From Verrucomicrobiia bacterium (GTDB lineage Bacteria > Verrucomicrobiota > Verrucomicrobiia > Limisphaerales > UBA8199), in the NCBI GenBank assembly GCA_035946615.1, contig DASYZB010000029.1:1-33868 (forward strand): DNA of 33,868 nt. The letters are read 5' to 3'. Below, in pieces: positions 31,122 to 33,868 of the stretch (its first letter is position 1; every line of letters begins with the position of its first letter). The position numbers and the translations under genes are program-made. The notes beneath the pieces are model-generated. The model did not search any database, was not told the DNA's origin, and saw only the letters and a list, made by a program, of their open reading frames with translations.

Positions 31122-32009
31122 ATGAAAACGAAACATCTGCTTCTTGGCGTGGGAATCGTCGTCGTTGCCGGAGGGTTATGGTTTGGGCGAGTAGTCTGGC
31201 GAGTGCGTCATCAAATCGTCACGTTGGATGTCCGCAACGCTCCTTTGGCTGATGTCTTGCTCAGCCTTGAAAGACAAACCTGGACAAAAATCCGCGCCGA
31301 AAAGGCCTTGGACGCCCGCATCACGATGCATGTGACGGACAAACCTCTTGCCGACGTGCTGGACCGAATCGCCGAACAGGCCGGCGCGCGGTGGTCCAGG
31401 CTCTACGCGGTTTACGACTCAGGCGCTGCTCTTGCGAAACTGGATTCCGCCCTGGGCGGGAATGGAATGGTTGAATCTGCGGGTTGGACGAAGCTGGCGC
31501 CCAGTGCCTCCCTGGGTGAGCATGGCCTGGAAGGCGGAGGCCATGCAGAGGGCGGACCTCGACTATTTCCGCCCGGCGACTTGCCTCGAGGGATGGGTGA
31601 TGCTCCCCCGCCAGGCGGTTTGGGCCCAATGGCAGGGCGGCGTGGGCCGATGATGATGAGGCGCACGCTCAATGGCCCCATGATTATTCAAAACGGCAAT
31701 GGCCAGGTGGAACTGTGGTCCCCGGAGGAATTAATCATCGACTCGGCGCTCGATGCCCGGCTTGGGAGCGATACGAATCAGACCGCTACAGCCCAGGCCG
31801 CTGCGGATACGGCGCAAAAGGTGCATGGCAAATGGACCACTTACCTGGCGTTCACCAAATCCATCATGGGTGTCGGCTTCGGAGTGCCTCCGCGTGGACG
31901 CCCCGGCTTTGGCCCTCTGAGGGCCAATCCAAACGATCGCTTTGCCAGGCTCACGCCGCAACAGCGGGTCGAGCGCGAGCGCCAGCGCCTGGGGTTAAAC
32001 ATTAAATAG
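31122..32009 (+). CDS. Membrane-anchored STN-like domain protein with Gly/Met-rich region
   Basis: 295 residues from ATG 31122. A hydrophobic anchor (residues 5-22) precedes a segment at about 32-97 ([22 protein letters not shown]...[30 protein letters not shown]) that matches the short secretin/TonB N-terminal (STN) fold: two repeats of xxVxxxPLxDVLxxIxxQ. Residues about 128-190 are rich in Gly, Pro and Met (PMMMRR). The C-terminus is basic, [18 protein letters not shown]. No secretin barrel follows, so it is not a secretin; function unknown. A TTG at 31101 would add seven residues. Confidence 0.68.
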
Positions 32010-32035
32010 CAACCGGCTCTGTTGGCCCTTATTCT

Positions 32036-32686
32036 ATGAACTCAATAACTTCCTGCCCCAATCGCCGCGTCATAACCTGGATTGCCGTGCGCGCCTTTAC
32101 CTTAATCGAATTGCTCGTGGTGCTCGCAATTACCGGAATTCTGGCCAGCCTGCTGTTGCCTGCCCTGGCGCGGGCCAAAGCCAAGGCCTACAACACGGTT
32201 TGCGTGAACAACCTCCGTCAACTGGGGATTGCCACGCGCCTCTACGCCGATGATAACAATAATCTGCTGCCCAGCGCGGAGATACTGCCCACGGAGCCGA
32301 TCAATCCGCAAAAACCGCTGCCGCGCATCTGCGACGTGCTGGCTTCGTATGTCGCCAGGGCCGCCGGCACCAGCACCAACAGCGCCACCGTATTCAAATG
32401 TCCCAGGGACGATAAAGGCCTCTTTGCCGCCGAGGGTTCGAGTTATGAATGGAACGCGGACCTGAACGGTCACCGGATTGATGAAACCCGCACCGCCAAC
32501 CTGTTCCTGGTGACTGCGACCAACGGAGTAATCGTCCAAAGCACAAACATGGTGCTGCGCTTTCCACCCGACACCACGCCGCTCTTTCTCGACTACGAGG
32601 AGTTCCACCCACGCCCGCCCAAACCGGGCAAGAACGTCGTCTATATGGATGGCCACGTCGCCCCGCTCAACACCCTGAACGAATGA
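32036..32686 (+). CDS. DUF1559-like type II secretion pseudopilin
   Basis: 216 residues. The prepilin signal is [31 protein letters not shown], cleaved before Phe21 by prepilin peptidase; position -1 is Ala instead of the common Gly, and the +5 Glu (E25) is present. [18 protein letters not shown] is the conserved pseudopilin continuation, and the C-terminus contains [14 protein letters not shown], the DGHV motif common in Planctomycetes-Verrucomicrobia pseudopilins. It would assemble into a short fibre of a secretion or surface system. No ATPase or platform gene is in the window. It is the third gene of the plus-strand group. Confidence 0.9.
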
Positions 32687-32734
32687 CGCGTTGGAGTCGG
32701 CGGGCATAACCAGGCCCACCCGCTTGGGTCGGCC

Positions 32735-32745
32735 CTGGTCCGCGC
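32735..32745 (+). repeat. 11-bp direct repeat, left copy
   Basis: CTGGTCCGCGC. The identical 11 bases recur at 32915-32925. The two copies bound the pair of inverted hairpin repeats. Confidence 0.6.
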
Positions 32746-32747
32746 GA

Positions 32748-32785
32748 AGCGTCGTGGACTGCGCCAGTCCCCTGGCGCTTTTAGG
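32748..32785 (+). repeat. Hairpin repeat, family 2, plus-strand copy
   Basis: A 38-base unit starting AGCGTCGTGGACTGC. It has a perfect 7-bp stem, GCGCCAG (32761-32767) with CTGGCGC (32772-32778), around a TCCC loop. The second copy on the minus strand at 32861-32898 aligns over the whole length. In its stem two base pairs have changed on both sides, so pairing is kept. Confidence 0.7.
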
Positions 32786-32860
32786 CCGCACCTTGCGTAA
32801 AGTTCCACTCTCACGCCCAATGGCCTTGAATTGGCCGAGCGAGGTCGGAATGAAAGGACA

Positions 32861-32898
32861 TCCAAAAGCGGTAGAGGACTACCGCAGTCCAAAACGCT
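32861..32898 (-). repeat. Hairpin repeat, family 2, minus-strand copy
   Basis: Reverse-complement reading starts AGCGTTTTGGACTGC. Its stem is GCGGTAG with CTACCGC (32868-32874 and 32879-32885 on the plus strand) around a TCCT loop. Relative to the copy at 32748, two C:G pairs have become G:C and T:A, while the flanks and the CGCTTTT tail are conserved. Confidence 0.7.
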
Positions 32899-32914
32899 AG
32901 CGCGACTTCCGGCG

Positions 32915-32925
32915 CTGGTCCGCGC
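32915..32925 (+). repeat. 11-bp direct repeat, right copy
   Basis: CTGGTCCGCGC, identical to 32735-32745. It lies 3 bases beyond the stop codon of the CBM48 gene and also forms a local GGCGC...GCGCC hairpin. Confidence 0.6.
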
Positions 32926-32928
32926 CGT

Positions 32929-33270
32929 TCAAACGGCTATCACTGAATTGGCGCTGCCAAAATCGTTCGGAACGGATTCTTTGGCGGTTGGATCGCTCAG
33001 CCACTGACCGTCCGCCACGAAGCGGTACTCGTAACGGCCTGGAGCGAGGGACAGGGTAGTCGTCCATTTACCCTGTGCATCCTTGCGCAAGGGCGTGCGC
33101 TCGGGAATCCACTCGTTGAATGTCCCGGCGAGCAGGACGTTTTGGGCTGCGGGCTTATCGATGGCAAACGCCACCTCTTTGGTGGTTTTGGCGGTTCCTT
33201 TAACCGGGCGCATGACGGAGCGTCCGCTCGGGCGCGTGGCCCTGAGGGGTTTTGTATGTCGAAGTTCCAT
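32929..33270 (-). CDS. Stand-alone CBM48/AMPK-type glycogen-binding domain protein
   Basis: 113 residues from ATG 33270, chosen since GGAG lies 8 bases upstream; a TTG at 33276 is too close to that site. After a basic N-terminus (RATRPSGRSVMR), the E-set glycan-binding domain is clear: VAFAIDKPAAQNVLLAGTFNEW, ERTPLRKDAQGKWTTTLSLAPGRYEYRFVADGQWLSDP. The two Trp and the Lys/Asn positions match the starch/glycogen-binding site of isoamylase-N/AMPK-beta domains. There is no catalytic part. It may target or regulate glycogen or a glycan; such small stand-alone versions are known in several bacterial groups. It is convergent with the pseudopilin gene across the inverted repeat block. Confidence 0.85.
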   Translation of the reverse strand: MELRHTKPLRATRPSGRSVMRPVKGTAKTTKEVAFAIDKPAAQNVLLAGTFNEWIPERTPLRKDAQGKWTTTLSLAPGRYEYRFVADGQWLSDPTAKESVPNDFGSANSVIAV

Positions 33271-33487
33271 GTTCAATTCTCCAGTTTGTTTTTAAATCGT
33301 TTTTAAACTCTCTTAACTTTCGTCAGCATCCGCTATCGCGCCGAAGCTTTCAAGCTTTTGACAATAAAATCCTGTGACATTCTCATGTCCATTACGCGGT
33401 TTCCTCGCCATCACTCACGGCACGTGGCTCTTCGAACACCATCCGGTAGATGGGGAATTGAGCGTCGTTATGATGATTCGGGCGAAT

Positions 33488-33868
33488 TCACCCGCCCAGC
33501 TTCCTCTCCAAACGCCCGACCACCTCGCGAACCTGGGGATCCACTTCCATCCGATCTTGAACGAGCTTGCAGGCATGCAACACGGTGCCGTGATCCCGGC
33601 CGCCGAAAGCTTCGCCAATGGTGTTTAAAGTGCAGTCGGTCATCTGCCGCGAGAAGAACATGGCGATCTGACGTGGGAACGCGATGTTTTCCGGCCGGCG
33701 CCTGCTGCTCATGTCTGCCAGTCGGATATCGAAGTGCTCTGCGATTTTCTTTTGGATCACTTCGATGCTGATCGCGTGGCGGCCTTCCTCATGGAGAATT
33801 TCCCTCAGCAAACCTTCCACGACCTCGATGCTCAGGCTGCGGCCGGTTAAGGCCCCGTAAGAAACAAC
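33488..33868 (-). CDS. dnaA: Chromosomal replication initiator DnaA, C-terminal part (5' end beyond window)
   Basis: The minus-strand frame is open from the window edge and reads VVSYGALTGRSLSIEVVEGLL, then ISIEVIQKKIAEHFDI, RRRPENIAFPRQIAMFFSRQMTDCTLNTIGEAFGGRDHGTVLHACK and a Glu/Arg-rich end at 33488. RPENIAFPRQIAMFFSR and the FGGRDHGTVLHA signature are the DnaA domain IV DNA-binding helix-turn-helix; the usual VGGRDHTTVLHA is slightly changed at two positions. It binds DnaA boxes at the origin. Only domain IV and part of domain III are present here. No DnaA boxes (TTATCCACA) were seen in the 217-base downstream spacer. Confidence 0.96.
   Translation of the reverse strand, partial: VVSYGALTGRSLSIEVVEGLLREILHEEGRHAISIEVIQKKIAEHFDIRLADMSSRRRPENIAFPRQIAMFFSRQMTDCTLNTIGEAFGGRDHGTVLHACKLVQDRMEVDPQVREVVGRLERKLGG

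Follow-up and report, generated by a model that had tools for sequence, protein, structure and literature searches.

The window, by which is meant the whole stretch of 33,868 nucleotides that was analysed (contig DASYZB010000029.1, from a verrucomicrobial bacterium of the order Limisphaerales), carries a pair of short hairpins facing in opposite directions between a gene for a prepilin-like protein and a gene for a small CBM48/AMPK1_CBM protein (Table 1). An earlier sequence-only reading had placed the pair between convergent genes, and this holds, since the + strand gene ends at 32686 and the - strand gene at 32929. From 32742 to 32903 there are two inverted hairpin units of 43 nt, placed tail-to-tail, whose arms of 35 nt are 80% complementary in opposite orientation. 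The left stem differs from the right in two adjacent base pairs, both of them compensated, just as that reading had described. When the 191-nt block was folded, none of 200 shuffles folded as well (z-scores of -4.59 as DNA and -3.76 as RNA). A covariance model of the unit, built from 36 units that include both of those in the window, scores 67.7 and 67.0 bits at the block and at most 8.5 bits anywhere else in the window, and a comparison of 32000-33868 with Rfam gave no match at E ≤ 1. The 11-bp sequence CTGGTCCGCGC occurs at 32735-32745 and at 32915-32925, 180 bases apart as had been noticed before, and these are its sole two exact copies in the window.

Table 1. Features of the hairpin block and of the genes on its two sides (positions in the window)
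Feature	Position	Strand	Remark
Left flanking gene, prepilin-like protein (N_methyl motif)	32036..32686	+	
Head-side linker motif CTGGTCCGCGC, first copy	32735..32745	+	9 of 10 aligned copies have it with 3 mismatches or fewer
Left hairpin unit, type CC/GG: head, foot TGGACTGCG, stem-loop, CGCTTTT tail	32742..32784	+	67.0 bits, model R1
Left stem-loop GCGCCAG-TCCC-CTGGCGC	32761..32778	+	sequence, pairing counted over copies; arms GCGCCAG 32761-32767, CTGGCGC 32772-32778
Tail-side spacer, 77 nt	32785..32861	.	alignable in full copies of the same genome; conservation below that of the units
Right hairpin unit, type GT/AC, inverted	32862..32903	-	67.7 bits, model R1
Right stem-loop GCGGTAG-TCCT-CTACCGC, then TTTTGG	32868..32885	-	sequence, terminator scan; arms GCGGTAG 32868-32874, CTACCGC 32879-32885
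Head-side linker ending in second CTGGTCCGCGC, start of next repeat period, truncated in window	32904..32925	+	
Right flanking gene, convergent, small CBM48/AMPK1_CBM protein	32929..33276	-	

How many times does such a unit occur in the genome of this bacterium? BLAST of the block against the genome returned 59 matches, some of which overlap, and the covariance model (R1, built from the alignment A2 of 36 units) gave 119 hits when 150 of the 4580 first-look candidates were scored. Thus, the further genomic copies that a covariance model had been proposed to look for do exist. The hits form 94 clusters, 74 single, 17 double, 1 triple and 2 quadruple. In the quadruple clusters (arrays C93 and C116) successive units face opposite ways, the period is about 180 nt, and the head-side linker leads into a further unit. 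Of 64 single clusters, 20 lie in loci where 12 nt or more of the spacer are covered by a match, so that part of the single units are remnants of dimers, and the remaining ones may be remnants as well. Gene context was read for 81 clusters with 102 units (the 11 weakest hits and 13 of the 94 clusters were left out, and cluster C17 (3738) was read from a locus holding only a part of it), and genes were called by a simple purpose-written codon-based finder. By these calls, 77 of the 81 clusters lie outside genes and 4 overlap one. If the latter and 6 clusters without a called gene on one side are set aside (10 of the 81), the other 71 are found between tandem genes in 46 cases, between convergent genes in 17 and between divergent genes in 8, and 34 of the 46 clusters between tandem genes occupy the stop-side half of the gap.

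The repeat is also spread among relatives. Hits to the model at E ≤ 0.01 occur in 44 of 58 genomes of the order, that of the window included, some of them having one weak hit, and the search of related Verrucomicrobiota that had been proposed thus does find copies. The exact core of the window type was found in at least 120 stretches of named genomes; 78 of the 80 listed carry titles of Verrucomicrobia, Verrucomicrobiota, Verrucomicrobiia, Verrucomicrobiales, Limisphaerales or Pedosphaera, and the other 2 are titled just bacterium. One contig of the viral collection alone has this exact core (L436, 6266-6292). In the 80 named loci listed, the model finds 189 units. For spacing and context 174 of these hits were used and 15 weak ones were left out; the resulting 94 clusters comprise 65 inverted pairs and 24 single units, with gaps of 6-24 or 51-64 in 45 of 49 tail-to-tail dimers and of 19-30 in 27 of 28 head-to-head dimers. 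In L096 (6306-6920), five weak unit-like hits stand on one strand at a spacing of about 148 nt, which suggests that decayed or divergent units form a tandem array there.

It is to be noted that the unit consists of a short hairpin between constant flanks, TTGGA[C/G]TGCG before it and CGCTTT after it. Two units in relatives keep these flanks with a wholly different stem, and the pattern TTGGANTGCG-N{8,38}-CGCTTT was then searched for. It has 60 matches in the genome of the window and none when read backwards. The pattern is present in 118 of 146 genomes of the order and in 113 of 288 of the phylum (the window's own genome is counted in both), although many of these positive genomes have only 1-2 matches, near the control level of 0-3 per strand given by the reversed pattern; in many genomes the copies number in the tens, and the highest count is 351. 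Frame motifs of such kind recur in Verrucomicrobiota. Across the order and the phylum the flanks TTGGANTGCG...CGCTTT are constant, and it is the enclosed hairpin that is exchanged. The window's genome also holds a second repeat family of the same frame, whose longer stems (GCGGCGGCAAGCGAAGCGCGACGCCGC and GCGCCGGCAGAGCGCAGCGGCGACGGCGC) stand in inverted pairs of unlike partners (contigs C13, C34, C65, C66, C113, C126 and C151 of G000; loci L238, L243, L250, L251, L253, L255, L268, L272, L274 and L275). Could the block in the window, then, be a chance pair of hairpins, without common origin or constraint? Short hairpins are frequent in GC-rich DNA. However, the 119 homologous units in the genome, the z-scores of the fold and the control with the reversed pattern refute such a reading, whose probability we regard as negligible.

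The sequence-only reading had supposed that pairing is conserved, and indeed changes in the stem are compensated both across the copies in this genome and in relatives. In A2, 95.9% of the stem cells pair, a value as high as which was seen in 0 of 500 shuffles. In A3, an alignment of the best 150 of the 189 units from relatives that was fitted to the structure model, 99.5% of the stem cells pair and three pairs are changed on both sides. Both the share of cells paired and the covariation score were reached by no shuffle in either alignment. Two other measures do not exceed the shuffles: the number of pairs with a change in both partners was matched by 496 of 500 shuffles in A2 and by 49 of 500 in A3, and the number of pair types by 500 and 56 of 500, respectively. 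A model-free test took 150 listed frame-pattern matches of the phylum, with 103 distinct inserts: 71% of these extend the stem by at least 3 pairs, against 11% after their halves are swapped (the highest of 1000 half-swap trials being 19%), and the mean number of extra pairs per distinct insert is 2.75 against 0.87, with 0 of 1000 trials as high. The other 29% of the distinct inserts are without a 3-pair extension, and some of them are chance matches to the pattern. Inner pair 2 is CG in 46 inserts, TA in 21, GC in 13 and AT in 5, and at the fourth position 41 of 97 have a G.A mismatch. Thus, the inserts vary by lineage and yet pair. Since the copies are kin and several pairs come from one genome, these shuffle counts, as well as the re-pairing counts given below, overstate independence. 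As in REP/BIME elements, pairing is kept by compensatory change, here among related copies in which the events are not independent. An alternative hairpin, GGACT/AGTCC, was also considered as the conserved one and rejected: it never covaries in A2, and only 105 of the 150 units from relatives can form it.

The partners of a dimer tend to differ from each other. In the genome of the window, 19 of 21 dimers have unlike stems (14 of 14 read by script and 5 of 7 by eye), and in all 14 pairs read by script a unit with C as its first inner letter is joined to a G or A unit; the two misfit clusters, L302 and L353, have broken or mixed stems. The dimers of relatives are unlike in 46 of 56 cases against 28 expected, and 5000 re-pairings gave at most 42. 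In the second family, all 10 neighbouring inverted pairs seen are unlike. The two compensated differences in the window are thus part of a wider preference for unlike partners. This rule is not universal, since identical partners are found in the lineages G476 and G333. Heterodimers with differing stem residues are described for other REP families by Di Nocera 2013 (PMC3733652), where it is suggested that unlike partners might escape enzymatic clearance. The same escape might apply here, as an explanation borrowed from those families by analogy.

Identical 11-bp repeats on both sides of the pair had been taken for the footprint of an insertion, and the corresponding explanation is a small transposon (MITE) that entered the junction in the window once and left 11-bp target duplications. 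MITEs are, like the repeat here, non-autonomous and intergenic with an inverted-repeat structure. However, CTGGTCCGCGC belongs to the repeat family itself. Ten copies were aligned by their left ends, where 2 of them, including that in the window, have the sequence exactly and 9 have it with at most 3 mismatches, its core TCCGCGC being kept in 7 of the 10; it is the head-side linker inside the period of about 180 nt of the alternating arrays. Being part of the repeat consensus at other loci, it is not a target duplication, and the footprint falls. No target duplication was noticed for the repeat family. For outer inverted repeats, a score of at least 11 was reached by 5 clusters out of 196 and by 1 random pairing of flanks out of 200, near the control level, in a test that used fixed borders for G009 loci, some flanks of which include unit sequence. 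The terminal inverted repeats and target duplication of MITEs are thus not seen here outside two loci of one relative, G012 (L399, 1508-1689, and L402, 1462-1650). There the dimer lies inside an element of about 180-190 bp that has TA at both ends and terminal inverted repeats like TAGTGTRGTGTCTCAGAATT, one end in L402 having 3 mismatches, and that we take to resemble an IS630/Tc1-type MITE. Since 2 of the 7 unit loci of G012 lie in such a TA-ended element, which speaks for the transposon, the repeat may be transported there as a passenger. As an account of the block in the window, a MITE is very improbable.

Whether the block is gained or lost as a whole can be asked at junctions shared by related genomes. 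G012 and G008, which belong to one genus other than that of the window, have 72 and 13 unit hits, respectively. The flanks of six G012 unit loci were searched in G008; the seventh, L396, was excluded as a gene call covers its unit. Matches on both sides were obtained for 2 of the 6 junctions, and both are without units in G008: in one the whole dimer is absent and the gap is short, and in the other (locus L404, G008:C492 2102-2437) an unrelated tandem repeat of about 17 nt, TGGTTGCATGAGTTACA, stands in place of the dimer. The other four junctions have no two-sided match, and one of these four, L397, has a one-sided match at two places in G008, one of which (L405) adjoins a weak unit-like hit of 14.3 bits. 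The gain or loss that the sequence-only reading had expected is therefore seen, as occupied against empty, at both of the two junctions that could be tested, between two species of another genus. As for the junction in the window itself, a match to dnaA, a gene found at 33488-33868, is present in 26 of 31 genomes, that of the window included. Around the 26 other dnaA loci (25 in relatives and a second copy in the window's genome), the CBM48 and prepilin genes are absent within about 1.5 kb on each side, and none of these loci has a unit at E < 0.01 (best 12.9 bits). As these dnaA loci lack the neighbouring genes, relatives offer no orthologous junction for comparison. The two dnaA genes of the window's genome (the second at G000:C111:1625-1996) are 79% identical over the C-terminal part, and the 25 relatives with dnaA hits have one copy each, G029 alone showing a second, weak hit (L435).

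What moves the repeat? One answer is that the units are ordinary REPs forming REPINs, moved in trans by a RAYT, a transposase of the Y1/HUH type, with GGAG or GGAC as a variant of the GTAG foot. Genes with a Y1_Tnp domain are indeed present in the window's genome (7) and in all 14 unit-rich relatives tested, and the constant foot, variable apex and inverted pairs resemble Pseudomonas REPs, TGTGGGAGCGGGC...GCCCGCGAA, as given in Nunvar 2010. On the other hand, the units have no GTAG foot, and no unit lies within about 1.5 kb, as far as the contigs permit, of 37 Y1_Tnp loci, which are all 7 listed in the window's genome and 30 of the 89 in relatives, the other 59, some of them high-scoring, being outside this count. 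At E < 0.01 the count is 0 of 37, and a looser scan gave 5 matches, all without the frame. A cognate Y1 gene flanked by the repeats, as is characteristic of RAYT-associated REPINs, was thus not seen in the 37 loci, and we hold mobilisation of ordinary REPs by a RAYT to be a serious candidate that is nevertheless somewhat improbable. In the 80 named loci, 11 genes lie between neighbouring copies at distances of 400-3600 nt, and the 10 of them that were scanned show no transposase domain either.

As none of the 37 Y1_Tnp loci has a unit beside it, we infer an enzyme acting in trans. Such an enzyme would read the constant flanks together with the hairpin on single-stranded DNA and would copy dimers into intergenic gaps. 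Pairing would be maintained because units that do not pair escape its recognition. Unlike partners would be favoured for another reason: identical inverted units make one long perfect cruciform, which cells may tend to delete. Probably, the hairpin has only a secondary role after transcription, when beside a stop codon it may protect the 3′ end of the transcript or cause a pause there.

The position between convergent genes had led the sequence-only reading to propose that the block serves as their terminator, in other words that it is a bidirectional intrinsic terminator under local selection at this junction. Each unit in the window points the way in which the gene nearer to it is transcribed, and a simple scan, which gave 3 sites against 0.9 expected in the region, accepts the right unit as terminator-like on the - strand and does not list the left one. 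In the same genome, single units between tandem genes are in sense orientation in 28 cases and antisense in 8 (p = 0.0012), at a median of 39 nt from the upstream stop. However, conservation in relatives stops at three T after the stem, which 142 of 150 units have, whereas 50 of the 150 have a fourth; the single units of relatives are 5 sense and 4 antisense, and the B/C units, mostly dimers, divide 6 versus 6. Since the orientation bias is not repeated in these few single units of relatives, it is given little weight. Moreover, 8 of the 71 intergenic clusters lie between divergent genes, and both G008 junctions compared do without a unit. Thus, of the proposed terminator what stands is that the right unit passes a simple scan; conservation extends to TTT only and the sense bias to one genome only. 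A locally selected terminator is unlikely, and such a role is at most secondary.

To which class, then, does the repeat belong? Like REP/BIME elements, it is a short high-copy intergenic hairpin, found in inverted pairs and alternating arrays with conserved spacers and often downstream of genes, and the proposal of a BIME-like non-autonomous cassette agrees with what was found: the units are dispersed in many copies in the genome and in relatives, 77 of 81 clusters lie outside called genes in pairs and arrays, and pairing is conserved. The flanks TTGGA[C/G]TGCG and CGCTTT here are neither the GTAG nor the CGTC tag of the two described superfamilies, and by their descriptions both superfamilies were set apart from the repeat. 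GTAG REPs and REPINs share with it a constant foot and an exchangeable apex, and GTAG repeats are reported from a verrucomicrobium, Opitutus terrae. The motif that they carry unpaired at one end of the stem, GTAG or GYRG-like, has no counterpart here: the consensus has no GTAG outside the stem, and of the 150 units in A3, 122 have the foot GGACT and 26 have GGAGT. CGTC REPs, according to Di Nocera 2013 (PMC3733652), are mostly dimers with no associated transposase known, and their tag ends a stem of 8-9 bp, with AT in the first two positions and mostly a CCA tail. In the present repeat the stem base is GCG/CGC and CGTC appears in some heads about 7 nt off, and 63 of 150 heads in A3 are without GCGTC in the alignment, partly through incomplete matches; it falls outside the CGTC superfamily. 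The literature searched, which covers few subscription journals, holds no prior description of the repeat, and the accessible text of RepRanger 2025 has no occurrence of Verrucomicrob.

Copy number, architecture, spread, compensatory change, the preference for unlike partners and presence or absence in one genus are observations that, quite probably, have their whole explanation in a repeat of the REP/BIME type, moved by a trans-acting enzyme, with pairing kept and unlike partners favoured. The repeat appears to form a new branch among the REP repeats already described. It might even be a third tagged superfamily, in Verrucomicrobiota, defined by the frame TTGGANTGCG / CGCTTT with almost any self-complementary insert, by dimers made preferentially of unlike stems and by an enzyme other than a flanking RAYT, a proposal that we make tentatively and to which we give a little less than an even chance. 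In such repeats the phylum would offer a natural experiment on REP evolution at its own scale, in which flanks that are possibly read by the machinery can be compared with inserts that merely need to pair. Two old questions may thereby come within reach of a test: by what means are REPs without a flanking transposase moved, and for what reason do dimers prefer unlike partners?
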